DNA of 64,000 nucleotides, taken from positions 145,706-209,705 of the forward strand of contig NZ_AOJN01000049.1 of the NCBI RefSeq assembly GCF_000337335.1. The letters run 5' to 3'. Positions 64-21,373 of this stretch are shown one piece after another; the first letter of the stretch is position 1, and every line of letters begins with the position of its first letter. The notes beneath the pieces are model-generated. The model searched no databases. It had not been told where the DNA came from and worked only from the letters and a program-made list of their open reading frames with translations. Source of the DNA: Halorubrum distributum JCM 10118 (lineage in GTDB: Archaea; Halobacteriota; Halobacteria; Halobacteriales; Haloferacaceae). Made by a program: the position numbers and the translations under genes.

Positions 64-65
64 AA

Positions 66-1205: not shown

Positions 1206-1522
1206 GTTGTTGAATCTATGTATGAGACGGCATAATATCCCCGCCTCAAATTGAGTCTATAAATATTCCCGACTTCTCACACAACTCAAGAGGCAATTCT
1301 CACAAAATACAGTCATACCCAAGCTCACAGCATCGGTACTGTTGAGGCCGGTAGTGTCGCCGTTGGGAAGCCATCCCGTCGACGTGAACCGCGGGAGCGA
1401 CGCCGACGAGGTCGTGAGAGATCTGTTCCAAGAGCGCGTTCCGCGTGTGGTCTTGGCCGGTACTAGTTGTACTCCCAAATCCGGTACAGATATGCCCCTC
1501 GCATATCACGATTGTATATTCA
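1206..1522. other. Intergenic region between pentapeptide gene and mcrB
   Basis: No gene is recognised here. It separates divergent genes, so it should hold both promoters: AT-rich boxes (tataaatatt near 1258) lie on the pentapeptide side, and a TATA-like stretch (ttgtatattc, 1513-1522) lies directly before the mcrB start. A GC-rich block at about 1340-1470 stands out from the AT-rich surroundings and may be a remnant of other DNA. It also contains the left copy of a direct repeat that recurs downstream of mcrC. Confidence 0.5.
1269..1287 (+). repeat. Left copy of 19-nt direct repeat flanking mcrBC
   Basis: The sequence ccgacttctcacacaactc recurs at 5597-5615 with a single change (c to t at the tenth position). 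The two copies have the same orientation and lie about 4.3 kb apart, one on either side of mcrBC. Such a match is unlikely by chance, but which recombination event left it cannot be told from this window. Confidence 0.6.
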
Positions 1523-4186: not shown

Positions 4187-4188
4187 GA

Positions 4189-5484
4189 ATGCGAACCGGT
4201 GGGAATATCTTGGACGATAACCGTGGTGAACGGAGCGTCCACAAGGTCGTAGAAAACGACTCGAAGCAGTTACAGCTATCTCGCGAGGATGTCACATACC
4301 TCCAGCAAGAGTGGGATGATGATGTTTCACTTATTGACAAGGGCGATACACAGACTATCTCAGTTACCAACACTGTCGGGGTAATTGGGCTTCCGAGCGG
4401 CAAAATACTCTCTATTACACCAAAAGTAGAGACCTCACTGCTGTACTTGCTAGCGTATGCTGGGCGTGTGAATGATAAAATCGTTCGAGACCGTCATCCT
4501 GGAGCGATCGAATTAGGTGACTCCCTGACTAACCTCCTTGGACAACTTTTCCTTACAGAAATTGAGCACCTTCACCGGCAGGGGCTCGACCAAGACTATC
4601 GGACTACGGAATCAACTGAACGACACGTCCGGGGACAAATTCAGGTGCAGAAACAACTCCAGCAACATGGTCCTGTTCCGACAGAATTCGAATGTCAGTA
4701 CCAAGACCGCACACCTAACATCCCGATAAACCAAGTGTTGGTAAAGACGGTCAATGTGGTACTTCCCCTGATTACTGACGCCGATCTACGCGCTCGACTA
4801 CAACAAGCACAAGCGCGTTTCAAGCCTGTTGTTGCTCCTAGTGTACACCCTCTAGAAGCTTTAGAACAAATTTCACTCAGTCGCCTCAATGATCACTATC
4901 GCGCTGCGCTACTGCTTTCTCAGGCGATTCTCGAGCAGGAATACCTCCATGATACTACAGAATCTACGAGACCGTTTCCGTCGATGGTTTTCCCAATGCC
5001 GACTGTTTTCGAAGAAGTGGTCCAGCAGGTCGTGGAAACGACACTGGACGGTACTCCATATAGAATGTCAAAAAAAGATCTGGGAACCATCGCCAAACGA
5101 GCCGATGATGAGAGAGGGACTCGAGACCTAGAGCCTGACTTTGTCATCCGCCGGGAAGTAGAATCTAAAGAAACTGACCCGGTAATCGCAGTCGGCGACG
5201 CAAAGTGGAAAACCGACAAGAAACCCTCCAGTGAGGACTTCTACCAACTTGCAACGTACCAAGCTTACGCAGATGTTCCTGGGATCCTCATTTATCCAAA
5301 AAAGCAGACGGAAGAACATGATCTCGTCTATGAGAACAGCAGTGATAGCAATCGGGGCCGCCTCTTGATTCGAACACTGAACACAGATCCCACGAATAGG
5401 TATGAGCCATTTGTTGATCAGTTATTTGAGAGCTTACGCGACCCACTATCTGAACTGCTCGATCACACAGATACTCCAATTTGA
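4189..5484 (+). CDS. mcrC: McrC endonuclease subunit of the McrBC system
   Basis: 431 aa. The ATG at 4189 lies two bases after the mcrB stop; a TTG two codons earlier overlaps that stop and is a less likely start. The N-terminal half is the McrB-contacting region. The C-terminal half carries the PD-(D/E)xK nuclease signature: EPDFVI (about residue 315), then VGDAKWK (about 334-340) and a QLATYQAYA helix. In McrBC systems McrC cuts DNA when driven by McrB. All expected catalytic residues are visible, so the system looks intact. Confidence 0.92.
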   Translation: MRTGGNILDDNRGERSVHKVVENDSKQLQLSREDVTYLQQEWDDDVSLIDKGDTQTISVTNTVGVIGLPSGKILSITPKVETSLLYLLAYAGRVNDKIVRDRHPGAIELGDSLTNLLGQLFLTEIEHLHRQGLDQDYRTTESTERHVRGQIQVQKQLQQHGPVPTEFECQYQDRTPNIPINQVLVKTVNVVLPLITDADLRARLQQAQARFKPVVAPSVHPLEALEQISLSRLNDHYRAALLLSQAILEQEYLHDTTESTRPFPSMVFPMPTVFEEVVQQVVETTLDGTPYRMSKKDLGTIAKRADDERGTRDLEPDFVIRREVESKETDPVIAVGDAKWKTDKKPSSEDFYQLATYQAYADVPGILIYPKKQTEEHDLVYENSSDSNRGRLLIRTLNTDPTNRYEPFVDQLFESLRDPLSELLDHTDTPI

Positions 5485-5703: not shown

Positions 5704-6309
5704 ATGCGCCTAGAGCAAACGCAAGCGGAGGATCAATTCAAATGCTGGCTCACTGACGACGACCTTGACGAGCTGCGGCGGGCGGCCGGGAGCATCCGGG
5801 ACGACCTCGTGATTCAACTCGGCGGATTCGTCGGGCTCCGCGCCTTCGAGATCCCGCAGGTGTGCCCGAAGCACGTCAAACGCACCCCGGACGGCGACCA
5901 CTTCCGGCTCCGCGTCCCGGAGGGGAAGGACACGACCAGCAGCGGCGGGAAGCCTCGCGACGCCTATCTCCCGCGAGAGGTCGAGGGCGACATCCACCGG
6001 TACGTCCGGTCGGAAGACGTGGGGCGTCACGAGCCGATCGTCGACCTCTCCGAGAGCGGTATCCGGGCGGTGGTCAAACGCACGGCCGACCGCGCGGCCG
6101 ACGCGACGGGCGATGAGGACTTTCGCTACGTATCGAGCCACGATCTCCGACGCCGGTTCGCGCAGCGGCTCCTCGTCGATAAACAGGTGAACCCGCGGGT
6201 CGTCATGCAGGTCGGCGGCTGGGACTCCTTCCAGGCGATCGAACCGTACCTGAACGCGCCGACGCCCGACGTCGTGAACGCGGCCTTCGAGGAGGCTGGG
6301 TTCGCATGA
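5704..6309 (+). CDS. int: Short tyrosine recombinase/integrase, SNJ2-type
   Basis: 201 aa, essentially just a catalytic domain with almost no arm-binding N-terminus, as in the small integrases of temperate haloarchaeal pleolipoviruses such as SNJ2. Catalytic residues are readable: R46 in GLRAFE, H146 and R149 in SHDLRRRF, W173 in GGW (the H/W position) and nucleophile Y182 in EPYLNAP. It should catalyse site-specific recombination between element and host attachment sites, here probably the tRNA-Trp 3' end. The ATG at 5704 lies directly after a palindrome and needs no leader. Its stop overlaps the start of a 13-codon ORF (6306-6347) that could couple it to the next gene. Confidence 0.88.
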   Translation: MRLEQTQAEDQFKCWLTDDDLDELRRAAGSIRDDLVIQLGGFVGLRAFEIPQVCPKHVKRTPDGDHFRLRVPEGKDTTSSGGKPRDAYLPREVEGDIHRYVRSEDVGRHEPIVDLSESGIRAVVKRTADRAADATGDEDFRYVSSHDLRRRFAQRLLVDKQVNPRVVMQVGGWDSFQAIEPYLNAPTPDVVNAAFEEAGFA

Positions 6310-7033: not shown

Positions 7034-7201
7034 GTGAGCCGCGTTCCCGACGGGATCGCGGTCTCGGAGGCGTTCGCGTCGTACCTCGAGGAGTTCCGCG
7101 AGCGGTACCCGCTCGATGTCGAACTGGCACGCAAACACGGCTGTTACCACACTCTCATGACACGAAGACGGACCAGCGGTAGCTACGGAGGAATCGCATG
7201 A
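7034..7201 (+). CDS. Small soluble protein ahead of the spike-like gene
   Basis: 55 aa from GTG 7034, helix-rich (SEAFASYLEEFRERYPLDVE), with no membrane segment. Its TGA overlaps the ATG of the spike-like gene at 7198, and its last codons contain the purine-rich ggagga that can act as the ribosome binding site for that gene. Translational coupling is therefore likely. No family is recognised. Confidence 0.55.
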   Translation: MSRVPDGIAVSEAFASYLEEFRERYPLDVELARKHGCYHTLMTRRRTSGSYGGIA

Positions 7202-8652
7202 ACATCGATCTCAAGAAGGCGGGGCTGGCGGCGCTGCTGGCGCTGACGGTACTCTCGTCGATGGTCGCGATGCCGGTAGCGGCGGCGGGCGGGATCGGCT
7301 GGGGCGGTGACGCGAAGACGCCGAACCCGGCGATCCACACGGACGTGACGGTCGAGGAGTGGTCGAACGCGGACTTCGACAGCGCGCTCGAGTACTACGA
7401 CGACAGCGGCGAGGCAACTGAACTGCCGGCCTCGGTGAACGAGTCGAACGACAACCCGGTCACGCTGACGGCGACCGCGATCGAGTTCGACCAGGGCGAC
7501 GCGTTCCCGCGGCTCGACGCGGAGGACGACGAGAACTCGGCGTCGGCGCTCGACGCGAGCGAGTGGACGACCTCGGGGGCGACGGTGAGCGACTCGACGA
7601 CCGCGGCGGGCGTCGACGCGCTGAACTACGCCGGGACGGCGACCTCGGACTCGGCGTCGTACACGAACGTCTCGGTCGCTGACGGCGAGAAGTCGTACGT
7701 CACGATCGCGGCGGACATCAACTCGGCGAGCGGGACGCCGACGCTGCGGGTGACCGACGGCGACGGCGACTACGTCGAGGTCACGCTGTACGACTCGTCG
7801 GCCAACGCGGACTCGGACACGGCCCTCGCGAACAGCACGGGCGATGGGAAGGTCCTGCAGCAGCAGGTCGGCAGCATGACGCTTCAGGGGTCGGGCGACG
7901 GCTCCTTCGGGTCGACCGAGGAGGTCTCGCTGCACGGTGACATCGACGCCGACGTCTCCGTCCTCGACGCGGAGCGCACGCGCGCACTCACCTTCGGTGA
8001 GAAGCTTGAGGACACGGACGACGACGACGAGCTAGAGACGGTGACGATTACGGAGCCGCGGGGCTCGTACTCGGTGACGGGCGTAGACACGTTCGACGAG
8101 GTCATGTCGGACGCGACGATCTACGGACTCACCGCGGACGCGGAGTTCGCGGCGAGCGACCTCGAGGACGACGAGGACGTGAACGCGGAGTTCGGCCCGT
8201 CGAGCGACTTCCCGCAGTGGGACCAGCTCGGTGAGCTGACGTTCCGGCTGGAGCTCCCGACGGCGTTCGACCTCTCGTACTCCTCGCCGGAGTTGGTCGA
8301 CGAGCCGACCCTCCCGAGTGAGCGCTACAAGGCGGTCGACTTCGCGGAGGACACCGGCGACACGGACTTCTCCGAGATCGACTACTCGTCGGTTGCGTCG
8401 AGCTACGACGGGAGCGACGAGGTCTCGCTCGACTCGACGGTCTCAACGGACACCGAGTACGTGATCTCGTACGACGTCACGCTGACGAACGACGAGGTCT
8501 CGGCGATTCAGAACGCGGCCTCGGGCGGCGGGGCGGCGATCATGTCGTCGAATAGCGGAGGTATCGTCGGGTTCATCACGTCGCTCCCCGGCATGATACT
8601 CTCGGCGCTGGCGGGTCTCGTCGGGATCCGCGCCTTTGGCGGAGGGTCCTGA
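7198..8652 (+). CDS. Secreted, membrane-anchored spike-like surface protein
   Basis: 484 aa. A Sec-type signal peptide (residues about 7-29, AALLALTVLSSMVAMPVAAA) is followed by a long, acidic, serine/threonine-rich ectodomain rich in predicted beta strands. A C-terminal hydrophobic anchor (IVGFITSLPGMILSALAGLVG) ends the protein. Size and one-signal-one-anchor topology match the VP4 spike of pleolipoviruses, and it heads the structural operon as spike genes do there. No sequence motif proves homology. The ATG overlaps the upstream stop and has a nearby ggagg. The next gene starts on the ATG overlapping its TGA. Confidence 0.72.
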   Translation: MNIDLKKAGLAALLALTVLSSMVAMPVAAAGGIGWGGDAKTPNPAIHTDVTVEEWSNADFDSALEYYDDSGEATELPASVNESNDNPVTLTATAIEFDQGDAFPRLDAEDDENSASALDASEWTTSGATVSDSTTAAGVDALNYAGTATSDSASYTNVSVADGEKSYVTIAADINSASGTPTLRVTDGDGDYVEVTLYDSSANADSDTALANSTGDGKVLQQQVGSMTLQGSGDGSFGSTEEVSLHGDIDADVSVLDAERTRALTFGEKLEDTDDDDELETVTITEPRGSYSVTGVDTFDEVMSDATIYGLTADAEFAASDLEDDEDVNAEFGPSSDFPQWDQLGELTFRLELPTAFDLSYSSPELVDEPTLPSERYKAVDFAEDTGDTDFSEIDYSSVASSYDGSDEVSLDSTVSTDTEYVISYDVTLTNDEVSAIQNAASGGGAAIMSSNSGGIVGFITSLPGMILSALAGLVGIRAFGGGS

Positions 8653-9140
8653 TGTCCGGAGCCGCCGACGAGCTACCGAGCGGGGACGACCCGTCTGCGA
8701 ACTCGGTACTCACGGGGACGATCTCGTTCCTGAATGGCGGAGGCTCTCTCGGGACGCTCCTACAGGGGGCGATCTTCGGCACGCTCGTCTCCTTCGCGAC
8801 CGGCGGCGTGAACTTGATCCAGAGCGCGTTCGGGCTGGTGATCGCGCCGCTCGACGCGCTGGCGTCGTCGGTGACGCAGTTTGTCGACTCGGCGTTCCTC
8901 GCGCCGCTGGGGATCATCGAGACGACGGCGGAGGCGTCGGCGACGGCGACAGCCTCGCAGTTCGGACCGTTCGCGATCCTCGTCGGCGTCGTGTTGGTGC
9001 TGGGTGCGTTCTGGATGATCACGCAGTTCCTCGAACAGTCGGAGACGAGCGACACGCTGCCGATCCCAGGACTCGGCGACGCGCCGGACATCCCGGGACT
9101 CCCGCTCGGCGTGACCGAGGAGAACGAGGACGAAGACTGA
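8652..9140 (+). CDS. Virion/vesicle-type small membrane protein, paralogue A
   Basis: 162 aa. An acidic N-terminus is followed by a hydrophobic segment (LGTLLQGAIFGTLVSFATGG), an amphipathic stretch, and a strong membrane segment FGPFAILVGVVLVLGAFWMI ending in TQFLEQ, then an acidic tail. The FGP(F/L)...VVLG.F...(I/L)EQ block recurs in the gene at 9189 and, more weakly, in the one at 9651, suggesting tandem duplication. Multi-span proteins of this size next to the spike recall pleolipovirus VP3. Directly coupled to the preceding gene. Confidence 0.65.
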   Translation: MSGAADELPSGDDPSANSVLTGTISFLNGGGSLGTLLQGAIFGTLVSFATGGVNLIQSAFGLVIAPLDALASSVTQFVDSAFLAPLGIIETTAEASATATASQFGPFAILVGVVLVLGAFWMITQFLEQSETSDTLPIPGLGDAPDIPGLPLGVTEENEDED

Positions 9141-9188
9141 TGCGGCACCCATCGCGATCCAACCGCGCGCTCGCGGGGGTGGTGAGCG

Positions 9189-9650
9189 GTGGCTGACGGC
9201 GACGACGCGACCGACGTGGACGTCGACGAGTCGTCGTTCCTGACCGGCGTCACTTCTATCGAGGGCGTCTCTTGGTCGGGTGCGTCGGGCGTCGACGTGG
9301 GACGGCTCGCGAGAGCGATCGTCGGGACGGCGGTGTTCACTGTCGCCGCCGGTGTGAACACGGTCGTCAGCGGCCTCACGGCCGCGGTCACGGGCCTGAT
9401 AGACGGCGTCAGCGAGTTCCTCGCGGGGGCGACGGAGTGGTTCCGGATCCCGGGCGTCGGCTGGCGGCCGACTCGAGAGGCGGGCCTGATCGAAGTGATC
9501 TTTGGGACCGGCATCGCCGCGATCCGCGGTGCATGGTCGTTCAACGTGGACACCTTCGGCCCGCTTTCGCTCCCGGTCGGCCTCGCGGTCGTTCTCGGGA
9601 CGTTCCTCGTGGTCGCCCGGGGCATCGAACAGATCCAGGAGGTGATCTGA
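9189..9650 (+). CDS. Virion/vesicle-type small membrane protein, paralogue B
   Basis: 153 aa from GTG 9189. Soluble N-terminus, then hydrophobic segments AIVGTAVFTVAAGVNTVVSG and FGPLSLPVGLAVVLGTFLVV followed by ARGIEQI. The second block aligns with that of the upstream gene. Between the genes an 18-codon ORF (9140-9196) starts on the upstream stop and overlaps this start, so coupling through it is possible. Function is unknown beyond being a likely envelope component. Confidence 0.65.
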   Translation: MADGDDATDVDVDESSFLTGVTSIEGVSWSGASGVDVGRLARAIVGTAVFTVAAGVNTVVSGLTAAVTGLIDGVSEFLAGATEWFRIPGVGWRPTREAGLIEVIFGTGIAAIRGAWSFNVDTFGPLSLPVGLAVVLGTFLVVARGIEQIQEVI

Positions 9651-10136
9651 GTGGCGGATGACGGTCCCTCTATCCCCGGTTGGATAGATGGTCTCAAGCC
9701 TCTGATCGACGATGTCAGTCTTCTCGAGGACTTCGCGAGCTCGCCTCGTCAGTTCGTCGTCGGCGCGGTGCTGACGACGTTCCTCGAGGTCGTGTTCGGC
9801 GTCGTCTCGCAGCTGGTCGACATCGTCCTCCTGCTGTTCGGCGGCTCGGAGCCGGGGCGGTTCAACGCGCCCGGCGAGACGCTCGGACTAGCGGACGTGC
9901 CGGTCGCGGTCGCTCAGGCACTCGGCGGTGCGGGAGCATCGTTCGGGACGACGATCCTGGATGCGATCCGCGGGCTCAACGCGGCCGTATTCGAGGCGGC
10001 TGGGGTGCTCGGACCGTTCACGCCGGTCGTCGTGGCGGCGGTCGTGATCACGGAGGTCGTCGTGGCGATCGTGGTGCTGCGTCGGATCGTGTACATCGTC
10101 GCCGACCTGCTGCAGCTCGGAGGGTTGACAGAGTGA
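9651..10136 (+). CDS. Virion/vesicle-type small membrane protein, paralogue C
   Basis: 161 aa from GTG 9651, immediately after the previous stop. Hydrophobic segments FVVGAVLTTFLEVVFGVVSQ with LVDIVLLLF, and a C-terminal GPFTPVVVAAVVITEVVVAI. Layout, length and the GP(F/L) start of the last segment parallel the two upstream proteins. The gene ends in a GTGA overlap with the next gene. Confidence 0.65.
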   Translation: MADDGPSIPGWIDGLKPLIDDVSLLEDFASSPRQFVVGAVLTTFLEVVFGVVSQLVDIVLLLFGGSEPGRFNAPGETLGLADVPVAVAQALGGAGASFGTTILDAIRGLNAAVFEAAGVLGPFTPVVVAAVVITEVVVAIVVLRRIVYIVADLLQLGGLTE

Positions 10137-10411
10137 CACTGAAAGACATCGCGAAGGATCCGCTGACGCAGGTGTCGGCGGGACTTGGCGCGATCGCCGC
10201 GGTGCTGAACCCGGAGGTCGTGTGGGCGCTGACGGATGCGCTCATCGCCTCGGGGCCGCAGTTATTCTCGGCGATCTCGGTGGGGGCGCTGACGCTCCCC
10301 CAGGTCCTGCCGCCGTCGTCAACGGGAGAGTGGGCGGTCGTCGCGGCCGCTCTCGTCTTCTTGGCGTATCTGGGTCAGCAGATCTGGAGCAACATCGATC
10401 GAGAAGTATGA
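10133..10411 (+). CDS. Small two-span membrane protein
   Basis: 92 aa, starting at GTG 10133 on the GTGA overlap. Begins VTLKDIAKDPLTQVSAGLGA and contains a moderately hydrophobic region plus a clear C-terminal span (WAVVAAALVFLAYLGQQIW). A 24-codon ORF (10408-10482) overlaps its stop and carries the ggaggtg ribosome binding site of the next gene. No family is recognised. Confidence 0.6.
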   Translation: MTLKDIAKDPLTQVSAGLGAIAAVLNPEVVWALTDALIASGPQLFSAISVGALTLPQVLPPSSTGEWAVVAAALVFLAYLGQQIWSNIDREV

Positions 10412-10469
10412 AACGCACACACAGCGGACGATCTGAGTGGAATCGGACACGAACGAACGGAGGTGAACA

Positions 10470-10841
10470 ATGTCGGCGGTGACGCTGGCGCTGGGCGTGC
10501 TCGCGGTGGGCGCGCTGGTCTACGTGGTCGGCGTCGAGCGAAGTCGTGACGCGGCTGCACGGGCCGGCTCGGCGGCCTCGTCGGGCGCCGGGGCGGCGTC
10601 GCGAGCGGTGTCGACGAGCGCGGCGGCTGGCGTCGCGGGGCTGGGTGTCGGCCTGCAGTTCGGAGACGACCTGATCACTGCGGTCCTTTCCGATCCGGGG
10701 TTCGCGTTGGCGGCGGTGACGGGGATCTTCGGCTCGCTCGGGACCGGGGGCTACCTCGGCGACCTGTCGGGGCTGCAGTTCCTGCTGATCGGCGTCGTCG
10801 TCTTCGCCGTCGGCTACGCGGCGTTCGGAGGTGAGGAGTAG
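10470..10841 (+). CDS. Small membrane protein with Ala/Gly-rich middle
   Basis: 123 aa. N-terminal span (VTLALGVLAVGALVYVVGV), an alanine/serine-rich region, and two more hydrophobic stretches (ALAAVTGIFGSLGTGGYLG and LQFLLIGVVVFAVGYAAFGG). A good ribosome binding site (ggaggtgaac) precedes the ATG. Unknown function; by context an envelope or assembly protein. Confidence 0.6.
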   Translation: MSAVTLALGVLAVGALVYVVGVERSRDAAARAGSAASSGAGAASRAVSTSAAAGVAGLGVGLQFGDDLITAVLSDPGFALAAVTGIFGSLGTGGYLGDLSGLQFLLIGVVVFAVGYAAFGGEE

Positions 10842-11071
10842 TGTCGTTCTACTTCCCTGATATCCCGGAAACAACCGGTGGATGGTCTCTCGCAGTTGCT
10901 GGTGGACTCATAGGGTTAGTCGTCTTCACGTTCCAGCACTGGTTCGATGCGCCATTCAACGGTCTTGCGATGGTCGTCGGTGCGGCGCTGACTGTGTTCG
11001 CGTTCACGGATGCCTACCTGATCGCGGACACTCTCGACGACCGAGAGCGGGCGACGGAGGCGAGTCGATGA
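10841..11071 (+). CDS. Small two-span membrane protein
   Basis: 76 aa from GTG 10841, overlapping the preceding TAG by one base. Two membrane segments (WSLAVAGGLIGLVVFTF and GLAMVVGAALTVFAFTDAYL) are followed by a charged tail. Its TGA overlaps the ATG of the large surface protein at 11068. Confidence 0.6.
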   Translation: MSFYFPDIPETTGGWSLAVAGGLIGLVVFTFQHWFDAPFNGLAMVVGAALTVFAFTDAYLIADTLDDRERATEASR

Positions 11072-12924
11072 GCCGCGGCGCCGCGGTCGTCGCGGTAAGC
11101 CTCGCGGTCCTCTGTGTGCTCTCCGCGCTCGGGGCGGCGATGCCCGCTATGGCGGCTGGGGTGCCGGCACAAGTCGAGGGCGGAAGCGGTGAGTTCGACG
11201 CGCCCGGACCGTTCGAGATCTCGGAGCTGCGGACGGGTGGGAACCAGCCGGCGGCAGCGCCGCCGTCGGTGCGGTACGTGGGCGACGGCTCGCAGCCCGG
11301 AGGAGCGATAGCGCTCCGGCACGTCCCGGCCGGGCCGCTGGAGAACCAGCCGATATTCTTGGAGCGAGGGAAGACACTGAACACCGACGAGGTCGAGCTT
11401 TACTCGACGGTGTTCGGCGGGTCGGCGACCGGCGAGTACGAGGCGGTGATCGTCTACTGGTCGGCGGAGTCCCGGACGGTGAACGGGACCACGGTCGAGT
11501 ACGCAGCCGATCAGGAGGTGCAGCGGGCGACGGTCGACGTCGAGCCGGGGTACGCGTCGGCGCCGATCGCGTTGAACTCGCACTACAACGAGTCGGTGCA
11601 AGCGACCATGTGGCTCGAGCGTGACGGTCAGGTCGTCGACGGGGCTCGCTGGCGGTTCACCCACGCGTCGGCGCCAGCGAGCCAGCAGGTACAGATCGAG
11701 ACGCAGGCTGATGCATGGTGGTACGTGTTCCGGACGGCGATCCTGCCGGGCGTGGCGTCGATCGTGGTCGGGCTGTCGGCGGCGAGAGCGACGCTGAAGC
11801 GAGCGGGCCGCGGACCGGGGTACTCACTCGGCACGTACGGGTTCCTGACCGGCGTCGGCGTGCTGCTGGCGATCGCCGGGCTCTACTACGAGCTCGCGGT
11901 CGTGGTACAGCACGTCGACATCCTGTTCGGCCTGTCGTTGCTCCCGATCGCGTACGGTGGCGGGCTCCGGATACGTGACCCGACGGAGAACATCGCCTTT
12001 GAGCGGAAGGAGCTGACCGAGGCGCTGAACCTGCGCCGCGGTCAGACGCACAAGGAGGCGGACCCGGATGCGGTGCCGGACGGGGGTGCGGAGTCGTCGG
12101 CGTCTACGAGCGACCGGATATCGCTCGACGAGGACGGCTACTACGACGAGCTCTTCGAGGACCTGTCGCTCCTCAAGACCATACGGGCGCCGGACGGGAA
12201 CGGCCGGCTGGTCCCGAGAAAGGGGTTCCGGCCGTTCTTTGCCCGGCTGTTCTCGAGCGCGGCGCGGCTCGATCTCACCGATCTTCGGACGCGGGTGAGT
12301 GTGAACGGGTCGGCGAGTCAGAAGGTGTACGTCGACCCGGAGAGCGACCACGCGGTCGACCTCAAGCCCGCGCACCTCCGGCGGCGGATGCCGGTGTGGC
12401 ATCGGCTCCCGGAGCCGGCTGACGGAGAGAGCCTGTCGCCGGTGACGAGAGGGCTCTACGGGTTGCTCACAGTCGGCGCGCTGGCGTTGCCTCTCATCGG
12501 GTGGCAGGCAGGGGCCGCTGTGGCGAACACGCCCGTCGTCGGCGCTGCGGTCGGCGTGGTACTCCTCGCGGTGGAGAGCTACGAGGCGGTCGACGGGTCG
12601 ATCGACTTCGACCCGGCGCCGCGCCACGACGTCACCGCGGACGCGTCTCTAACGGTCATGCAGTCGGAGCACTCGGACGCGAAGACGCTCGAGGAGTACG
12701 AGGAGATCGTCTGGCAGGAGCGGACGTCGACGGCGCTCGAAGCCCGCGAGGTCGACTCGCGGCGCGACGCGAGCATGATCCGGCGGCTCCTCGAGGACGA
12801 GGTGAACATGGACCTCGGCGCGACCGGCGTCGACGAGAACGCCGGCTCCGAGCTTGAGGACCGGCCCGTCGACGAGTCGGACCGTCGCGCCGGCCGGCGC
12901 GACACGGAGGAGGACGATGTCTAA
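11068..12924 (+). CDS. Large multi-span surface/assembly protein
   Basis: 618 aa. The signal peptide is cut near AMPAMAAG (about residue 27-30), then an ectodomain of about 190 residues. Two or three spans follow (FRTAILPGVASIVVGLSAAR; TYGFLTGVGVLLAIAGLYYE; VDILFGLSLLPIAYGGGLRI), then a cytoplasmic region of about 160 residues, two more hydrophobic stretches (LYGLLTVGALALPLIGWQAG and VVGAAVGVVLLAVESYEAV) and a highly charged C-terminus. The start was chosen on the ATGA overlap at 11068-11071 because the signal peptide begins there. The position upstream of the ATPase parallels the conserved membrane ORFs between spike and VP8 in pleolipoviruses. No motif identifies it. Confidence 0.62.
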   Translation: MSRGAAVVAVSLAVLCVLSALGAAMPAMAAGVPAQVEGGSGEFDAPGPFEISELRTGGNQPAAAPPSVRYVGDGSQPGGAIALRHVPAGPLENQPIFLERGKTLNTDEVELYSTVFGGSATGEYEAVIVYWSAESRTVNGTTVEYAADQEVQRATVDVEPGYASAPIALNSHYNESVQATMWLERDGQVVDGARWRFTHASAPASQQVQIETQADAWWYVFRTAILPGVASIVVGLSAARATLKRAGRGPGYSLGTYGFLTGVGVLLAIAGLYYELAVVVQHVDILFGLSLLPIAYGGGLRIRDPTENIAFERKELTEALNLRRGQTHKEADPDAVPDGGAESSASTSDRISLDEDGYYDELFEDLSLLKTIRAPDGNGRLVPRKGFRPFFARLFSSAARLDLTDLRTRVSVNGSASQKVYVDPESDHAVDLKPAHLRRRMPVWHRLPEPADGESLSPVTRGLYGLLTVGALALPLIGWQAGAAVANTPVVGAAVGVVLLAVESYEAVDGSIDFDPAPRHDVTADASLTVMQSEHSDAKTLEEYEEIVWQERTSTALEAREVDSRRDASMIRRLLEDEVNMDLGATGVDENAGSELEDRPVDESDRRAGRRDTEEDDV

Positions 12925-13687
12925 GAGCGACGACAGCGGTCAGACGCGAACGACCCGTCCCGCGCTCGACGTCCTCGACCGCGACCAGGACCGGCTCTTG
13001 TACGCGGGCGACACGCGTCGGAATCCGGCGGTCGAACCGCTCGCGGACGGCTTCTCGACGTACTGGTCGGCGCTAACATGGTACCAAGCGGCGGGGATCC
13101 GCACGCTCGGACACGTCGAGCGGGTGATCGAGCCGAAAGAGATCATGCCGCTGTCGACGATCCTCGAGTACCTGTTCGCGACCGACGACTCACCGGAGGG
13201 GCGCTACGTCCGGATGCGGACGGTCGAGGAACTAAACGATGCGTGCGACCTCGCGTACAAGCAGTTCCGAGAGCGCGCGAACGAGCGGGTCGAGAACGAG
13301 GAGGGCGACAGCTGGAAAGACGTCGACCCGGACTCGGAGCGGAACCCGTTGATGCGCCCGGCGTTCCGCCGGCTCGACCGGAGCCAGGCGGGGGCGCTCA
13401 TCGCGCTATGGGACGGCTTCGAGGACCGGCGGGCGGTCGGGCGCTGGGTCCGGTCGCTGGCGGCGCCGACGAACGGCGAGACGCCGGACGGGTTCCTGAA
13501 CGAGATCGTGTCGTCGCCGCCACTCCTCGAGGCGCTCCTGGATAGGGAGTCACGAGACGCGAAGATGACGCGGTACCGGTTCGCGGTCGGCGCGCTCCTG
13601 CCACCGTTCCTGTCGGCCGCGCGGACGCTGAACGGCGGCGAGCGGACGGATAGCAGCGGGAAGACACACGAAGCGTGGAACTCATGA
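12917..13687 (+). CDS. Soluble charged protein of the structural operon
   Basis: 256 aa, starting at ATG 12917 inside the last codons of the preceding gene. No membrane segment or signal; mixed helical and charged, with an aromatic region (FSTYWSALTWYQAAGIRTLG) near residue 50. The stop forms an ATGA overlap with the ATPase gene, so the two proteins are probably made in matched amounts and may work together. No family is recognised. Confidence 0.55.
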   Translation: MSKSDDSGQTRTTRPALDVLDRDQDRLLYAGDTRRNPAVEPLADGFSTYWSALTWYQAAGIRTLGHVERVIEPKEIMPLSTILEYLFATDDSPEGRYVRMRTVEELNDACDLAYKQFRERANERVENEEGDSWKDVDPDSERNPLMRPAFRRLDRSQAGALIALWDGFEDRRAVGRWVRSLAAPTNGETPDGFLNEIVSSPPLLEALLDRESRDAKMTRYRFAVGALLPPFLSAARTLNGGERTDSSGKTHEAWNS

Positions 13688-15054
13688 GCAAATCATTCAG
13701 CAGTCGACAGAAGGAACAGCGCGGCGAGGAGTCGGTGATCGAACGGCTCCACGAGGACTTCGCGCCGTGGGAGAAGTCGCGGCAGGCGCGGTATCACGCC
13801 GGCTCGAAGTCGTGGGGACGGCTCGCTCAGTACCACAACGACGGCGAGCGGATCTACAAGGACTTCGAGGACGCGGCGGGGAACAGCCTCAAGCCGTTTC
13901 ACAAGAAGCTCGAGAGCCTGTCGCGGACGGCACGCCTGAACGGGATGGAGAACGCGCACCCGGTGTACCGGTACCCGAGCTCGTACCTCGACGCGATCAT
14001 TCACGTCGACGACGCGGAGATGTGGGCGCTCGAGGAGGGGCGGCTCGACGACGACATCATCGCGGAGCAGCCGGCGCCGCGCCGGAAGGTGCTCGAGTGG
14101 CTCGCGAAGCCGGAGAACGAGCACGTCCTCGCGGCGATGGGCGACGGCGGGACCGACATCTGGGCGCACTCGAAGCCGGGCGGCGGGAAGACGTCGTTCG
14201 CGAACGTCGTCGGCGGGATCCGGATGCCGGAGATCAACAACGAGACGCTGCTGTGGATGCTGACGCTCGACGAGCTCGAGTGTCTCCCGCTCGCGCCGTA
14301 CATGACCGTCGCGGTGCCGGCGGGGATCGACTACGAGGTCCACGCGAAGCCGCGGAACCCGACGCTGCCGACGACGGAGATCTCGCTGACCGACGTGTTC
14401 CGCGACACGATCACGTACAAGAACCCGCGAGACCTCATGACGAAGATCGTCCCGGGCGGGCTCTACGCGGTGCTGCCGGACCCGCTGTTCCGAGGCTGCG
14501 AAAAGCAGACGATGGCGACGTACACGCCGGCCCGAGAGGCGGAGAAGCCGGCGGAGGTAACGCCGCTCCGTGACGTTAATTTCGCGTTCATGGACACGAG
14601 AGCGAAGGACGACGAGTTCCTCCACCCGACGACGATGGTCCTCGACGAGTTCTCGGACCTGGTCCCGCTGAACCCGGAGGCTGACGAGAACGACCAGAAC
14701 CGGAAGGTGAAGGGCTACCCGGTCAGCCAAGGGAAGGGACGGAAAAAGAACCTCTCGACGATCCCGCTGTCCCACAGCGTCGCCCGCGTCGACGAGGGGG
14801 TTCGGGAGAAGACACGGTGGTTCGTGACGATGCCGAAGCCCCCGCCGCCGTCACCGTCGCTGTCGGGGATCGGGAACGTACCGATCGACAAACACTACGT
14901 GAACCGGTTCGCGGACCGGACGGGTCGGGCGGTGATCTGGCGCGACCAGAACTACACGCCGGTCGAGTGGCCAAACCCATACCGGAACTACCGGTTCCGG
15001 GGCGAGATCTCGGTGCGATACCCGCGCCGGGAGGAGGCGCTGGATGCGTTGTAG
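13684..15054 (+). CDS. P-loop ATPase, VP8/packaging-like
   Basis: 456 aa. Walker A HSKPGGGKTSFAN (about residues 163-175) and Walker B TTMVLDEFSDLVP (about 316-328) are clear; a region after it (LSTIPLSHSVARVDEGVREK) could hold sensor or finger residues. The overall style is that of HerA/FtsK or TraG-like ATPases used for DNA translocation or packaging. Pleolipoviruses carry one ATPase of similar length (VP8) at the same relative place. The ATG at 13684 overlaps the preceding stop. It ends the tightly coupled part of the operon; a gap of about 170 bp follows. Confidence 0.72.
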   Translation: MSKSFSSRQKEQRGEESVIERLHEDFAPWEKSRQARYHAGSKSWGRLAQYHNDGERIYKDFEDAAGNSLKPFHKKLESLSRTARLNGMENAHPVYRYPSSYLDAIIHVDDAEMWALEEGRLDDDIIAEQPAPRRKVLEWLAKPENEHVLAAMGDGGTDIWAHSKPGGGKTSFANVVGGIRMPEINNETLLWMLTLDELECLPLAPYMTVAVPAGIDYEVHAKPRNPTLPTTEISLTDVFRDTITYKNPRDLMTKIVPGGLYAVLPDPLFRGCEKQTMATYTPAREAEKPAEVTPLRDVNFAFMDTRAKDDEFLHPTTMVLDEFSDLVPLNPEADENDQNRKVKGYPVSQGKGRKKNLSTIPLSHSVARVDEGVREKTRWFVTMPKPPPPSPSLSGIGNVPIDKHYVNRFADRTGRAVIWRDQNYTPVEWPNPYRNYRFRGEISVRYPRREEALDAL

Positions 15055-15225: not shown

Positions 15226-18200
15226 ATGACTGACGAGACACCAACCGACACCAACGACGAGGAGGAACAGAACCGAGAGCTGATCGCGTGGCTGAAGACG
15301 ACGCTGGTCGCGCTCGTGGCGCGAGTCCGGTCGGCGGTCGCACAGTCGGTCGAGGAAATCGAGCCGCAGCTCCGCGGGACGCTCGAGCGGCTACACATAC
15401 CGGCGGGCGCGGTGAAACCGCTCGCACTCGCGGCCGTGCTAGTCGTGGCCGCGGTCGCGATGCCCGCGGCGCCGTTCGCGGGCGATGCGACGAACAACTC
15501 CACGGAGGAGGCTGTCTCAGGGACTACTTACGACCCGGTCGACGGGAACGACCTGCGGGACGTGGTGTCGAATAGTCTAGGCGCTGCGACGAGTTCGGCA
15601 CCGCCAGCACCGAGTGACGTGCGAACGAGCGCGGGCTCACAAACGATGAGCGTGCAAACGGACGTCGTCGACGGTGATCCGGCGATCGTCCTCGAGGACG
15701 ACCGAACCCACGACGGACGCTGGGTCGCGATCGAGACGGCGTGGTTCCAGGAGCACGTGGGCGAGGTGCCGCAGGTGGCTCGCGTAAAACACGAGAGTAA
15801 CGGCACGTACTCGACGCCGATCGAGGCGCGCGGCGAACAGGCCGCGTTCTACGTTGAGGAGTTCTCGACGAACACGGTCACGTTCGACGGCGTGCTCTCG
15901 GTCTCGGGTGGTCCGGCTGTCGACGGCGACACGATCAGCTACGAGGCGCCGAACGGTGGTTCCGACCTATCGATCGATCTGACGGGCGTCGAGAACACGG
16001 CACCGGACTCGGCATCCATGAGTGCGTCGGGATCAGGCACTCTCCCGATCTCCGTCGACGGCAACACGGCTCCCCGCAACGAGAGCGTCACTATTACCGG
16101 AGTGAGAGAGACGACCGCAAAATCGACAAGTGACACGTTCACAAGTTCTGGGACGCTTGCCGTCGACACGGGTAACGTCCCCGCTGACAATATTCAACTG
16201 TCGGTTGCTGGTGGCGCTAACACCGCCTCAAAGTCTGTTGGTGAGTGGATCTATGACAACGAATACTCGGAGAGCGAGCGAACAAGCGAGACGACCGTTT
16301 CAACAGACAGTATAGATACAATTGAGCAAGTGTATATTAACACATATGTTAATCTCGCGGGTCTCGATGATTCTAACATGGAGGTGTATATCGACGGTGA
16401 GAAGCAAGGATCCTATACGGTCATAGATGGTGAAAAAGAGAGTATAACGATAGATATTGGCTCTGTTCCTGTAGATAATGATGTGACTGTCAAGTTTTAT
16501 AACCCGGATTATGGCACGATCAAAATCCAAAGCTACGAGCTGCGGGGGATGTCGCCGGGGACGGTCACGGCGTCGACAGATACGGGGGACTCAGAATCAC
16601 TCAGTATGGGGGAATCGACCTCGATCCCGCTCAAAAGTAACACCAACGGAGTGACAATTGACGGGATAAGCGGAGGGACTGTTGACGCGTCGCTATCTTA
16701 TGATAAGGTCATCCAGACACAGAACCCGTCCGTTAGTGTCGGTGGATCGACCGTCTCCGAGTCGGGTGTCATGTCTCCCGGAGATACAAAGACTGGACAG
16801 GTGGACCTCTCGACAGGCGCGCAGTCGGCTGACGTATCGGCGTCCGGTCCGGTCGACGTGTCGGCGTCGTGGACAGAGGTGAGCGAGACGCGCGATCCCG
16901 TCGTGGAATATAACGGTCAGACGGCGAGCTACTCCGGAACGCTATCGGACGGCGAGACCACCTCGCTTCCGGTGAACGACTCGTGGATCAACGAGGGGAC
17001 GAACGACCTCTCTGTGTCGCTGCCGTCGGTGTCGAGCGGACCGGTCCCACAGGTGGGCGTCGACGTGACCCACGATGTCTCCGAGAGCCGGACGATCGAC
17101 TACTCCGCCGAGGCGTTCTCGGAGCGGTACACGACCTCGAAGACGTGGAGCGAGAACACGTCGAACGCGACGCTAAGCGTCCCGTGGGCCTCGTCGAGCG
17201 TCGTCTCCGTCCGGGATATTTCGGTGACCTACGAGGACTCGACGGGAGCGACACCGAGTCCGCGGCCGAACCCTACGCACCGCCTCGAAAACGGGTCGGT
17301 CGTCGTAGAACTCGGAGACGTGAAAGCTGGATGGACTACCGAGATCTCGGCGGCCGGCTCGAAAGTGCAAGTCGACGGCGCCGACCTCGAGGTCATCAAC
17401 GCGACGGCAGCTGGCGAGGACCTCGACAGCCGGATCCGACTGAACAGCCCGTCGGACGACGTGTACCTCCGCGTCGGAGAGACCGAACAGGGACAGCAGC
17501 TCCACTACCTCGCGAACGCCTCGTGGAGCAACGAGGAAGCGTCGCAGATCAGCGCGGACGGGACGAACGAGATTCGCATCCCGAACGCGCCGGACAACGG
17601 CGAGGCACAACTCCGGACGCTTCCGCTCGCGTTCGACGTCGAGACGGGAGCGATCGACGTGGACATTCCGGACGGCCGGCTGAACGAGGGAGAGCCGGTC
17701 TACCGTGTCTCGTCGGCTGGCAGTACGGGAGACAGCTACCACGTGACGTTCACCGAGGCGAAGGACGGACAGCCGTACGTCCTCTGGTCGGAGACGCGCG
17801 AGATCGTCCTCGACGAGGGCATGGCGTCGAGCCCGCTCACGCTCTCGGCGGAGGACTCCGAGGAGACGCAGGTGATCCAGTTCCGCGAGGACGACGGCAC
17901 CGTGACGAGTTCCGACGGTGGCGTCGGCGGAGCGATCGCAGGGGCGGCGCCGATGGTGACGACGTCGTCGCCGTTTAGCGGGCTGGGTGGCTTCCTCCCG
18001 GGCCCGAGCGTGTTCATCATCGGTCTCGCCGGCCTCGTCGGACTAACGTTCGTGGCACGGCGGACGCAGCTCTTCGACGAGGGCACAGCCTCGGACGCGG
18101 TCGCGGACTCGGCAGCGAGTGTAGGCGAGCGCGCCGGTGGGCTTCTGGGCCGCGCGCTGTCAAACGAACTCGTGCTCGCGGGCCTGACGCTCGCGGGTGG

Positions 18201-18534
18201 CGTGTGGTTGCTCACGTCGGGCGCGTTCACCGAGACGGAGCGGCTGATCATTTCCCTCGGGAGCGTCCCGGTCGCGATGTTCTTGGTCCTACAGCAGTTC
18301 GACCAGTTCGACCTCCGGGTGTGGGCTGGCTCGACCGCGGTGGTCGCGGTGCTCGGGATCCAGGCACTCGCGCCGGAGGTGTTCACGACGATCGCCGAGG
18401 AGGCGGGGATCGTGATCGTGGCCGGTGCGCTGATCCTCGGGTGGCGAGCGCTGTCGGCGTGGCGCGCGGAGGCGTCGACGCCGGAGACGGTCAACCGGCT
18501 GCGGATCTCGACGGAGGACGACGATGACACCTGA
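15226..18534 (+). CDS. 1102-aa membrane-anchored surface protein, probable second spike or receptor-binding protein
   Basis: A charged cytoplasmic N-terminus is followed by a signal-anchor at about residues 63-84 (VKPLALAAVLVVAAVAMPAA). An ectodomain of about 800 residues, Ser/Thr/Gly-rich with repeated beta-sandwich-like patterns, comes next, then four or five C-terminal membrane segments (from VFIIGLAGLVGLTFVA, about residue 925, to IVIVAGALILGWRAL). Codons for about residues 290-440, strongest at 349-435, are markedly AT-rich compared with the rest, suggesting a swapped-in domain. A strong purine-rich ribosome binding site (ggagggggtg) precedes ATG 15226. The next gene overlaps its end by 11 bp. 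Function by analogy: host attachment or envelope stabilisation. Confidence 0.65.
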   Translation: MTDETPTDTNDEEEQNRELIAWLKTTLVALVARVRSAVAQSVEEIEPQLRGTLERLHIPAGAVKPLALAAVLVVAAVAMPAAPFAGDATNNSTEEAVSGTTYDPVDGNDLRDVVSNSLGAATSSAPPAPSDVRTSAGSQTMSVQTDVVDGDPAIVLEDDRTHDGRWVAIETAWFQEHVGEVPQVARVKHESNGTYSTPIEARGEQAAFYVEEFSTNTVTFDGVLSVSGGPAVDGDTISYEAPNGGSDLSIDLTGVENTAPDSASMSASGSGTLPISVDGNTAPRNESVTITGVRETTAKSTSDTFTSSGTLAVDTGNVPADNIQLSVAGGANTASKSVGEWIYDNEYSESERTSETTVSTDSIDTIEQVYINTYVNLAGLDDSNMEVYIDGEKQGSYTVIDGEKESITIDIGSVPVDNDVTVKFYNPDYGTIKIQSYELRGMSPGTVTASTDTGDSESLSMGESTSIPLKSNTNGVTIDGISGGTVDASLSYDKVIQTQNPSVSVGGSTVSESGVMSPGDTKTGQVDLSTGAQSADVSASGPVDVSASWTEVSETRDPVVEYNGQTASYSGTLSDGETTSLPVNDSWINEGTNDLSVSLPSVSSGPVPQVGVDVTHDVSESRTIDYSAEAFSERYTTSKTWSENTSNATLSVPWASSSVVSVRDISVTYEDSTGATPSPRPNPTHRLENGSVVVELGDVKAGWTTEISAAGSKVQVDGADLEVINATAAGEDLDSRIRLNSPSDDVYLRVGETEQGQQLHYLANASWSNEEASQISADGTNEIRIPNAPDNGEAQLRTLPLAFDVETGAIDVDIPDGRLNEGEPVYRVSSAGSTGDSYHVTFTEAKDGQPYVLWSETREIVLDEGMASSPLTLSAEDSEETQVIQFREDDGTVTSSDGGVGGAIAGAAPMVTTSSPFSGLGGFLPGPSVFIIGLAGLVGLTFVARRTQLFDEGTASDAVADSAASVGERAGGLLGRALSNELVLAGLTLAGGVWLLTSGAFTETERLIISLGSVPVAMFLVLQQFDQFDLRVWAGSTAVVAVLGIQALAPEVFTTIAEEAGIVIVAGALILGWRALSAWRAEASTPETVNRLRISTEDDDDT

Positions 18535-18856
18535 CGTGCCGCTGTTCATCGGGGAGTTCCTCTCGGAGTACTTCCGCGAGTCGGTGGTGCTCGCGATCCT
18601 CGCGGGTGTCGTGCTGCTGCGGTTCCGTCGATACCGCGCGGTGGCGGGAGCCGGCGCGGCGGCGGCGGGGTCAGCGGCGACGGTCGCGGTCGCGGTGGTC
18701 GTGACGCTCATCGCGATCGTGGCACTCGGCTACTGGGAGCCGCCGGTCGAAGAGATCATCGCGGACGGGAGCGCTGCGGCTCGCGGTGTCTACGAGTTCA
18801 TCCTACAGCCTATCGTCGACATCGGCGCGAAGGCTCTCCGTACAGGGACGTCGTAA
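18524..18856 (+). CDS. Small membrane protein ending the rightward operon
   Basis: 110 aa. It begins within the last codons of the large surface-protein gene (ATG 18524). Two hydrophobic segments (SVVLAILAGVVLLRF and AGSAATVAVAVVVTLIAIVAL) are separated by a basic loop RRYRAVAG. Unknown function; coupling suggests a partner of the 1102-aa protein. Confidence 0.62.
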   Translation: MTPDVPLFIGEFLSEYFRESVVLAILAGVVLLRFRRYRAVAGAGAAAAGSAATVAVAVVVTLIAIVALGYWEPPVEEIIADGSAAARGVYEFILQPIVDIGAKALRTGTS

Positions 18857-19317: not shown

Positions 19318-20985
19318 TTACTCGACCCAGTCTCGCCGATCGGTCCGAACGCGGACCTCGTCACCTTCCAGGTACTCCTTCTCGAGCGCTGTCGCCAGCT
19401 GGTGCGGCTCGAGCGTGAGGTCCTGGAAGTACGCCCACTCCGAACGACGTCCGCGATCTCCGTCGCCGGCGTCGTCCTGGTCGTCGCTGTCCTCCTGGTC
19501 GTCGTCACCGACCGCGGTCGGGTCCTCGCGCTCCTCGCGGCGCTCGCGTCGAGCCTCCGCGCGGTCCATCATGTCGTCGACCTGGTCGTCCGGGTAGATC
19601 CGCCGAAGGATCTCCTCGGCCTCGTCGAGGACGGCGAGGCTCGGGAACACGACCAGCACGGGGTTCCCGACCTTCTCCGCGATCCCGACGTCGACGAGCC
19701 GGGACACGTGGTACCGTATCGTCGAGCGGGCGAGCCCGGTCCGCTCCTCGAGCGTGTCGTAGGACGCGCCCGACTCGGTCGCGACCACGCGGAGGATGTC
19801 GTACACGGCCTGCGTGTTCGCTTTCAGCGCCTCGCGGTGGATCTCCGTCCCGACGGCCTCGTAGCGCTCCCGGAGCTGTTCACGACGGCCGCCCGGGTGC
19901 TTGTACCGGTACTCCGGGCTCGCCGGTCCCGCCTGATAGTCGTCGGCGATCAGCTCGTCGCGACCGACCCCGGCCCACTCTAGGTGCGCCGAGACGACCG
20001 ACCGCAGCACCGACATGACCTCGTCCCACTCGTCGACATGCGGGAGCGCTCCGTCGCCGTCGACGCCGGCGAACGACGCCTCGAGCTTCGGGTGGTGCGC
20101 CGGGTCCTCGCGCGGGAACTCCGCCCACCCCGCGGCCTGGTAGCACTTGAGTTCGATGTCGTAGGACGTCCGCTCGAACCCGAGGAGGTGCCAGCGGTCG
20201 GCGTCGAGGAGCGCCTCCAGGTAACCCTCGCGCTGTCGGCGCTGGTGCGCCTCGATCTCGGACTGACCGCCGTAGGCGATCAGCTCCCGAGTCTGATCCA
20301 GGACCTCGACGACCTGCCGCTTCCATCCGATGTCGAACCGGTGGTGTGCCTCGGCTTTAGTGAGCCGACGCGAGTCGGCGTTCCGGTCCGCGAGGAGGCG
20401 ACCGCGGTCGACGTCCAGGACGACCTCGAGGAGGTCGAGCATCCGCCCCTCGACCTCGGCGGCCGTGTCGGCCCACGTCGTCGAACACCGCACGAGCGAG
20501 CCCTCGTCGTACTGGAGCGTGAGCGGCTCGCCGTCCTTGTAGTTGAGATCCTCGAACTGCGGGATCACACGGAGCGAACACGCCTTCCCGGTCTTGTAGA
20601 GGTCCCCGTCCTCGTCGCGCTCGCGGAGCGTGAGGTCGTACTTGTAGTACGCCGAGTAGTCGTCGCCCGAGCCGGTACCGGCCTTCCAGCGCGACGAGGT
20701 GAGCTTCACGACCCACTCTCGCCCGGGCGTCGGCGCGTCGAGCCACGACAGCTCCCGGTGATCGACCTCGGCGGCGATCCCCGGCTCCTCGTCGCGATCT
20801 CCGACGAGGTCGTACCACAGCTGGTGAACGGCCGAGTAGAGCGCGAGGTCGCGACCCGCGTCGTTGAAGACGGCTTGAACGGCGGCTCCGTGCGCGGCCG
20901 GCTGCGGTGCGACGCGGTCCTCGATCCGCGGGTCCGGGAGCGTGCCGATCCCGGCCTCCGGAGTGGTCGGCGTGTCGATGCTCAC
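19318..20985 (-). CDS. Winged-helix protein, probable replication or master regulatory protein of the element
   Basis: 555 aa from GTG 20985, which overlaps the preceding zinc-ribbon stop (GTGA). The N-terminal 380 residues form a large unknown domain with conserved-looking aromatic and charged motifs (WVVKLTSSRWKAG, YYKYDLTLRERDEDG). Residues about 390-435 are a MarR/ArsR-like winged helix (YDTLEERTGLARSTIRYHVS), and the C-terminus is very acidic with a last basic patch. Related-looking proteins with a C-terminal winged helix occur in betapleolipovirus-like genomes in place of a rolling-circle Rep, as I recall. Replication initiation is my first guess, lysogeny control the second. It is the last gene of a five-gene leftward operon. 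Confidence 0.65.
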   Translation of the reverse strand: MSIDTPTTPEAGIGTLPDPRIEDRVAPQPAAHGAAVQAVFNDAGRDLALYSAVHQLWYDLVGDRDEEPGIAAEVDHRELSWLDAPTPGREWVVKLTSSRWKAGTGSGDDYSAYYKYDLTLRERDEDGDLYKTGKACSLRVIPQFEDLNYKDGEPLTLQYDEGSLVRCSTTWADTAAEVEGRMLDLLEVVLDVDRGRLLADRNADSRRLTKAEAHHRFDIGWKRQVVEVLDQTRELIAYGGQSEIEAHQRRQREGYLEALLDADRWHLLGFERTSYDIELKCYQAAGWAEFPREDPAHHPKLEASFAGVDGDGALPHVDEWDEVMSVLRSVVSAHLEWAGVGRDELIADDYQAGPASPEYRYKHPGGRREQLRERYEAVGTEIHREALKANTQAVYDILRVVATESGASYDTLEERTGLARSTIRYHVSRLVDVGIAEKVGNPVLVVFPSLAVLDEAEEILRRIYPDDQVDDMMDRAEARRERREEREDPTAVGDDDQEDSDDQDDAGDGDRGRRSEWAYFQDLTLEPHQLATALEKEYLEGDEVRVRTDRRDWVE

Positions 20986-21158
20986 GTCGACCCACCCCGG
21001 CACTTGTAGCAGACGACGTCTTCGCCGGATGTCTTCCCCCCGCACTCGGGACACTCGTAGTCGCCCTTGTCGAGGTCGACGCCGTCGAACTTTTGCTCGA
21101 CCGCGCACATCTGACAGACGCCGCTCCGGCGCTGCGTGGGGTGTGGGCACCCCGTCAT
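20982..21158 (-). CDS. Zinc-ribbon protein with two metal-binding knuckle pairs
   Basis: 58 aa, beginning MTGCPHPTQRRSGVCQMC. Cysteines occur as C..H, CQMC, CPEC and CYKC, enough for two zinc sites. Starts at ATG 21158 on an ATGA overlap with the upstream gene and ends in a GTGA overlap with the winged-helix gene. Probably a nucleic-acid or protein adaptor acting with its neighbours. Confidence 0.68.
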   Translation of the reverse strand: MTGCPHPTQRRSGVCQMCAVEQKFDGVDLDKGDYECPECGGKTSGEDVVCYKCRGGST

Positions 21159-21373
21159 CGGCCACCTCCCGCGTCGGCCTCGACGAGCTCGAGGACGTTC
21201 CACCAAGTGACTCTCTGGCAGGAGTGACACACGTGTTGGAACGAGCCGCTGGAGCGGTCACCGACGATCTCGGCGGTCCGCTTCTCCGAGGTCTTTCCGC
21301 ACCCCGTACAGCGCGCCGAGAGCAGCGGGCCGACGTGGCCCACGCCGGGCGCGGTGGCCCGTTCACTCGACAT
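21155..21373 (-). CDS. Zinc-ribbon protein
   Basis: 72 aa from ATG 21373 (MSSERATAPGVGHV). One clear four-cysteine ribbon, RCTGCGK and HVCHSCQ, about 25 residues apart, with a hydrophobic C-terminal helix (WWNVLELVEA). Overlaps both neighbours in the leftward operon. Confidence 0.66.
   Translation of the reverse strand: MSSERATAPGVGHVGPLLSARCTGCGKTSEKRTAEIVGDRSSGSFQHVCHSCQRVTWWNVLELVEADAGGGR

Follow-up and report, generated by a model that had tools for sequence, protein, structure and literature searches.

The window analyzed here, a stretch of 64,000 nucleotides from Halorubrum distributum JCM 10118 (contig NZ_AOJN01000049.1, positions 145,706 to 209,705), carries on its forward strand an operon that includes the gene for a 1102-aa membrane-anchored surface protein. 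The genes of this operon and the parts of the surface protein gene referred to below are the following:

7198..8652, forward strand: 484-aa operon protein of no known family, which recurs in the operon of related loci
10882..12924, forward strand: predicted membrane protein of 680 aa, part of the operon and of no known family, found in 68 of the loci
12854..13687, forward strand: 277-aa operon protein of no known family, which recurs in the operon of related loci
13675..15054, forward strand: P-loop NTPase gene directly 5' of the surface gene, with invariant G171 and K172 (Walker A), D324, and E325
15226..18534, forward strand: membrane-anchored surface protein gene (P0001, 1102 aa), open frame, with homologs in 55 of 392 order-level genomes
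15226..15998, forward strand: conserved N flank, residues 1-258, with 78.8% nucleotide identity to the nearest relative (L051), stopping at 15998
15999..16883, forward strand: replaceable cassette, residues 258-553, with no alignment to the nearest relative
16090..16540, forward strand: AT-rich core of the cassette, residues ~289-439, GC 0.459, GC3 0.487
16366..16518, forward strand: stretch weakly similar to the Ca-dependent carbohydrate-binding module CBM60 (PF16841), residues 381-431, below the cut-off
16714..16887, forward strand: one C-side repeat unit (TQNPSVSVGG...VSASWTEVSETRDPVVEYNG) bordering the tip (Alignment A1)
16884..18534, forward strand: conserved C flank, residues 553-1102, with 80.9% nucleotide identity to L051 from 16884

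The surface protein has no match above the cut-off in Pfam and no match in PHROG or NCBIfam, and the scanned operon proteins gave no Pfam match above the cut-off and no PHROG family. The 55 genomes with relatives were identified by a profile search with the conserved C-terminal core (C core), and whole-genome searches placed relatives in the same genus and in the same order; the set used for comparison consists of the window's gene and 61 further haloarchaeal homologs (n = 62). Most of the near relatives with a species name belong to Halorubrum, and the family occurs on chromosomes as well as on plasmids, including pNYT2 of Haloarcula taiwanensis, pNG300 of Haloarcula marismortui, and a plasmid of Halosegnis marinus. 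Relatives were found neither by tblastn in 50,697 phage records nor by a pattern scan of IMG/VR, and a virus origin of the protein was set aside as unsupported by these searches, while relatives do occur on haloarchaeal plasmids. Where a locus has an NTPase homolog, the latter is encoded on the same strand as the surface gene (58 of 58 loci) and lies upstream of it in nearly all cases, mostly adjacent and within a few hundred bases. The true start of the 680-aa protein is probably downstream of 10882. On the opposite strand, at 19318-21366, a 682-aa DUF7845 / winged-helix protein matches phrog_15150 ('transcriptional regulator', 2.6e-171) and has homologs at 24 of the related loci.

Comparison of the homologs divides the surface protein into a common N part that stops near residue 258 (LSIDLTGVEN), a common C part that begins at about residues 547-553 (TRDPVVEYNG), and a middle of 173-743 residues, with short repeats on both of its sides whose copy number differs among homologs (Alignment A1). 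In a structure model obtained with 54 homologs as input, the N flank contains a membrane-like helix at about residues 60-77 followed by the base of a beta-rich stalk with LSIDLTGVEN at its end, and the C flank continues as a beta-rich stalk until about residue 890, after which comes a C-terminal group of helices (about residues 928-1084) that are probably membrane-spanning. The pLDDT of this model is mostly above 80 at residues 230-330 and 450-890 and is 46-67 at residues ~331-450, the tip. With a membrane anchor at both ends, the chain would go out to the tip and then back to the membrane. A Foldseek search with the whole-protein model returned no match with a useful TM-score, and profile and single-sequence searches of the PDB sequences found no solved relative of the protein and no chain of the archaeal fusexin Fsx1 (7P4L), which is also absent from the 50 best fold matches listed.

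The original prediction described a sharp drop in base composition at 16090-16540, strongest at 16270-16530, inside a frame that stays open. The frame indeed runs uninterrupted from 15226 to 18534, its product contains the NMEVYIDGEKQGSYTVIDGE motif, and the drop was confirmed by a GC of 0.459 and a GC3 of 0.487, compared with a GC of 0.67 for the rest of the gene. At 16270-16530, GC and GC3 are 0.410 and 0.425, while the gene beyond the replaced segment has a GC3 of 0.85. The proposed sliding plot of GC and codon usage gave the same picture: the GC along the gene starts out at about 0.65, drops to 0.39-0.43 at 16250-16550, and is back up by about 16750, and the minimum 60-codon GC3 of the gene (0.35, centered at nt 16387) was reached in none of 500 permutations of codon order. 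In the middle of the gene, the synonymous-codon GC3 is 0.573 versus 0.839 predicted from its own flanks, which rules out amino-acid composition as the sole cause. Given the results of the codon permutation and the own-flank prediction, the dip is real, resides in synonymous positions, and goes beyond an amino-acid effect. The replaced cassette as a whole (15999-16883) has a GC3 of 0.59 versus 0.85 for the remainder of the gene. No other gene of the operon contains a deep GC3 dip; AT-rich DNA is also found at 1-5.4 kb of the window (GC ~0.5), and the dip is thus not unique in the window.

The locus of the nearest relative, Halorubrum salinum GX71 (L051), is collinear with the window, with identities of 78% over 7157-13650, 79% over 15226-15998, and 81% over 16884-18767, and has no alignment to it at 15999-16883 (residues 258-553). 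In 9 of 10 close pairs of homologs, the middle is likewise unalignable or just partly alignable, embedded in collinear DNA of ~72-96% identity. Five pairs have their N-side break between +638 and +815 of the gene, four others have it at +103, +424, +947, and +988, and the same breakpoints often recur among pairs (15998 and 16884 in the window). The L045/L064 pair shares 96.4% identity across 8.1 kb upstream and 93.3% across 2.1 kb downstream of a replaced middle, which in L045 is an FG-GAP repeat array matched above the Pfam cut-off (E 5.7e-24), whereas L064, 89% identical to L045 in the C core, lacks the array and has other content in this place. The FG-GAP array consists of seven near-identical GDIDGDGTAEIVYQDT repeats (9931-11145 of L045) that occupy the position of the usual tip. 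When tips were compared with tips, 5 of 6 tested pairs proved no more similar than shuffles (z from -0.7 to 0.7). The tips of the L085/L095 pair retain detectable similarity (z 11), and the L089/L090 pair forms an unbroken alignment with no replacement; because of these two pairs, diversification cannot be described as always complete replacement. By blastp, 21 of the 62 tips are singletons. An all-against-all search for cassettes common to distant flanks gave moderate cases only, such as L046/L061, with 52% identity over 412 aa versus 33% in the C core and short nucleotide matches.

The prediction of a hypervariable, beta-rich block at this place is therefore borne out by orthologues that carry an unrelated segment there between flanks of 79-93% DNA identity, and no orthologue with the same segment was found in 392 order-level and 52 genus-level genomes. 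The swapped domain that had been proposed stands as a replaced block, widened to residues 258-553; the accompanying idea that its AT-richness marks one recent import does not, as described below. For the window's own tip, the search of these order-level and genus-level genomes gave nothing beyond one weak match (39% over 71 aa) to an unrelated haloarchaeal secreted protein, which we judged to reflect a shared beta-sandwich type. The tip also had no match among the other homologs of the family, and no donor cassette was found in plasmids, phages, or viral contigs. Some genomes contain two copies of the gene (L033 and L034; L043 and L044) with near-identical C cores and different middles, an arrangement that would allow exchange within one cell. 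The NTPase gene of the window (13675-15054) cannot be aligned with its counterpart in L051 (8770-10008), although the surrounding genes are 78-81% identical, and we therefore regard it as a second operon segment replaced in this pair; a similar break ahead of the surface gene was observed in the L036/L042 pair.

Low GC3 characterizes the cassettes as a class. Over the 62 homologs, the mean GC3 is 0.80 for the N part, 0.62 for the middle, and 0.82 for the C part; the homologs are related, so the counts that follow are not independent, although the middles themselves are largely unrelated. All 62 middles fall below their own C part, and 60 fall below their own N part. The GC3 minimum of the gene is located in the middle in 58 of 62 homologs, while the middle accounts for 32% of the gene on average. 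A prediction from the homologs' own flanks gave 0.806 for the middle versus 0.614 observed, with a lower observed value in every one of the 62. The 60-codon GC3 minimum averages 0.45 over the homologs and shows no correlation with the GC3 of the flanks (r = 0.00). Common descent from one AT-rich sequence is no explanation, the middles being for the most part unrelated. In 8 close pairs, old and new cassettes alike have a GC3 below that of the remaining gene, with a weak difference in L085/L095. The AT-richness, being common to the whole class (62 of 62 homologs and these 8 pairs), is therefore no mark of one recent event. Flanks that differ by only ~4-8% leave no time for GC3 to drop by 0.1-0.4 if the cassette changes at their rate, so the cassettes of those pairs must have been AT-rich on arrival, unless the cassette mutates far faster. 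Relaxed constraint in general was rejected as the cause of low GC3: in 3 of 4 neighboring operon genes the variable parts are not AT-rich, and the NTPase gene shows a milder link. A long-lived pool of cassettes that recombine via their flanks only, and thereby escape GC-biased conversion, would explain the AT bias; low-GC halophiles as the source of the cassettes are an alternative. GC-biased conversion has been proposed to be compatible with the high-GC genomes of haloarchaea, which is debated, and a direct test in Haloferax volcanii gave no clear GC effect (PMC8223754).

Based on these observations, we consider it probable that the surface protein is stalked and membrane-anchored and carries an exchangeable tip cassette, whose core is seen in the gene as the composition dip; the operon occurs on haloarchaeal chromosomes and plasmids. 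Replacement occurs at recurrent breakpoints, the exchanged contents are unrelated, and old and new cassettes alike are AT-rich. In the proposed mechanism, the conserved N and C flanks would make up a beta-rich stalk that has membrane helices at either end, and the cassette would be held between the two flanks, bordered by short repeats of varying number. Homologous recombination in the conserved flanks would most likely swap the whole cassette during DNA exchange of cells or elements, and the cassettes would circulate in a long-lived AT-biased pool. Placed at the far end of the stalk, the cassette may act as a binding domain that decides which cell surface is recognized.

The same data were weighed against four other readings. 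Accelerated mutation in situ under diversifying selection, with GC3 decaying to a mutational equilibrium because a variable sequence lacks a homologous partner with which GC-biased gene conversion could take place, would agree with a tip GC3 of ~0.45 that is independent of flank GC3 and with the similarity still retained by the L085/L095 tips, and it could draw on the proposal for high-GC haloarchaea cited above, with its unclear test in Haloferax volcanii. We regard this reading as unlikely, since in the L045/L064 and L032/L074 pairs, with flanks only ~4-8% different, the middles are dissimilar and of other length or kind; point mutation, at any excess that is plausible, would have left remnants that still align, and 3 of 4 neighboring operon genes combine variability with no lowering of GC3. 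A single recent import into H. distributum JCM 10118 from an AT-rich donor would fit a cassette that is unique among the genomes searched and absent from L051, but is highly improbable in view of the middle at the same place, which has a lower GC3 than the C flank in every one of the 62 homologs, and of the 8 pairs in which both alternatives are low; what is AT-rich is the class, though each cassette may be imported.

Programmed diversification, by a diversity-generating retroelement or by invertible or shuffled silent cassettes beside the gene, typically produces a variable tip in a fixed frame, and the haloarchaeal virus phiCh1 is mentioned as phase-varying its adhesion proteins (cited in PMC8651126). 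Such a system is very hard to reconcile with the locus: length and domain type vary, beyond point changes. A diversity-generating retroelement was rejected because the whole genome contains no match to reverse transcriptase (RVT_1), and silent cassettes, inversion, or a shufflon because the cassette and its flanks are single-copy in the genome, with no long inverted repeats at the locus tightly around the cassette. The cassette could also be a mere spacer or length regulator under weak constraint that has no binding role, as might be suggested by the wide variation in flanking repeat number and total length and by the 21 singleton tips; this has a low probability in our estimate, comparable to that of mutation in situ, given that the sequence is strand-rich, the frame is always open, one homolog carries an FG-GAP domain, and the window's tip has weak carbohydrate-binding-like matches.

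The latter matches come from two sources. CBM60 (PF16841) aligned to tip residues 381-431 with E values of 0.0065-0.016 and 16-17 bits (best 17.4), below the Pfam cut-off of 28.2. A model of the tip alone, computed from single-sequence input and with a mean pLDDT of 54, was used for a Foldseek search, in which this low-confidence model matched the jelly rolls of BcsB, CBM35, CBM22, CBM36, and CBM51 with probabilities of 0.93-1.0; a cycloisomaltooligosaccharide glucanotransferase was also near the top of the list, and phage tail fibre and viral capsid proteins were among the matches. Because the tip model is poor, these fold matches serve as a hint only. The CBM60 and fold hints are both weak, but different in kind; the tip of the window would probably be a jelly-roll, carbohydrate-binding-like module. 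It resembles the CBM60/CBM36-type modules in its weak sequence match and in the tentative jelly-roll-like strand order of the model, and differs from CBM60 proper in scoring under the family cut-off, with a model of low confidence. Taken together with the stalk, the membrane anchors, the occurrence on plasmids, and the replacement pattern, these hints point to glycan recognition on a cell surface as the most likely role of the tip. The receptor-binding function put forward in the original prediction is plausible on this basis, and an influence on host range might follow from it.

Several known systems have features in common with the surface protein. The tail-fibre adhesins of the Hafunaviridae, which are haloarchaeal tailed viruses, possess hypervariable segments linked to host range (PMC8651126). 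The likeness lies in hypervariable segments of a surface-exposed binding protein (in the present case a candidate one) on a haloarchaeal mobile element; no sequence relation was found, the protein studied here has membrane helices at both ends and an internal cassette between conserved flanks, and the scanned operon proteins have no match to tailed-virus families. Bacterial fibrillar adhesins and Periscope Proteins carry a binding domain on a stalk of variable-number repeats (PMC8201768, PMC9210967), to which the repeats of variable number on the N side and C side in the surface protein homologs correspond. In those bacterial proteins the stalk length varies, whereas in the archaeal protein, which has no sequence relation to them, replacement affects the complete internal tip, and the chain would run back to the membrane. 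ORF6 of the pR1SE-like plasmids moved in vesicles (apHPVs) has a variable N-terminus and a conserved C-terminus (PMC10818511); compared by description only (reference KX687704), it is similar in being a large beta-rich protein with variable and conserved parts that is encoded on haloarchaeal plasmids with an NTPase in the cluster, and differs in that the surface protein is conserved at both ends. Neither a subtilisin-like protease (apHPV ORF7) nor any other peptidase was found among the operon proteins scanned. For the cell-wall island of Haloquadratum walsbyi, the sections of the source considered here report that homologous recombination diversifies surface-protein genes, one such event covering ~250 bp of an S-layer gene; the proteins are different, and those sections describe no fixed AT-rich cassette (PMC4535781). 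With the functional class of exchangeable-tip surface proteins, the surface protein shares a block replaced as a unit within conserved flanks (9 of 10 pairs) and incoming blocks that are unrelated (z ~0 in 5 of 6); binding of a receptor by the block, with an effect on host or partner choice, would be the further trait of this class.

Exchangeable recognition tips are known from viruses and bacteria. Here, the protein belongs to no described family, and the exchange pattern, clear over its 62 archaeal homologs, combines recurrent breakpoints with a composition signature that is independent of the host's own GC, so that composition alone can serve as a marker for finding such cassettes. The cassette also provides a natural test case for the question why GC is high in sequences that recombine and drops in those that do not. 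If a circulating pool exists, the AT bias would be a lasting signature of DNA that moves only as a cassette and rarely meets a homologous partner, and the link between recombination and GC would become directly testable inside single genes. The surface protein is a candidate for the factor that decides with which partners haloarchaea exchange genes. More tentatively, and with appreciable doubt, the NTPase, the 680-aa, 277-aa, and 484-aa proteins, and the surface protein might constitute a previously undescribed haloarchaeal membrane system, borne by chromosomes and plasmids, that retargets cell-cell or vesicle-cell recognition by drawing on an order-wide pool of AT-biased cassettes inserted at two near-fixed sites.

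At the left end of the window, the AT-rich region mentioned above (1-5484, GC ~0.5) encodes a pentapeptide-repeat protein (66-1205, reverse strand) and a McrBC-like restriction pair (1445-5484). A short tyrosine recombinase of 201 aa, possibly truncated, is located where AT-rich DNA gives way to GC-rich DNA (5704-6309); an integrated element may end here.
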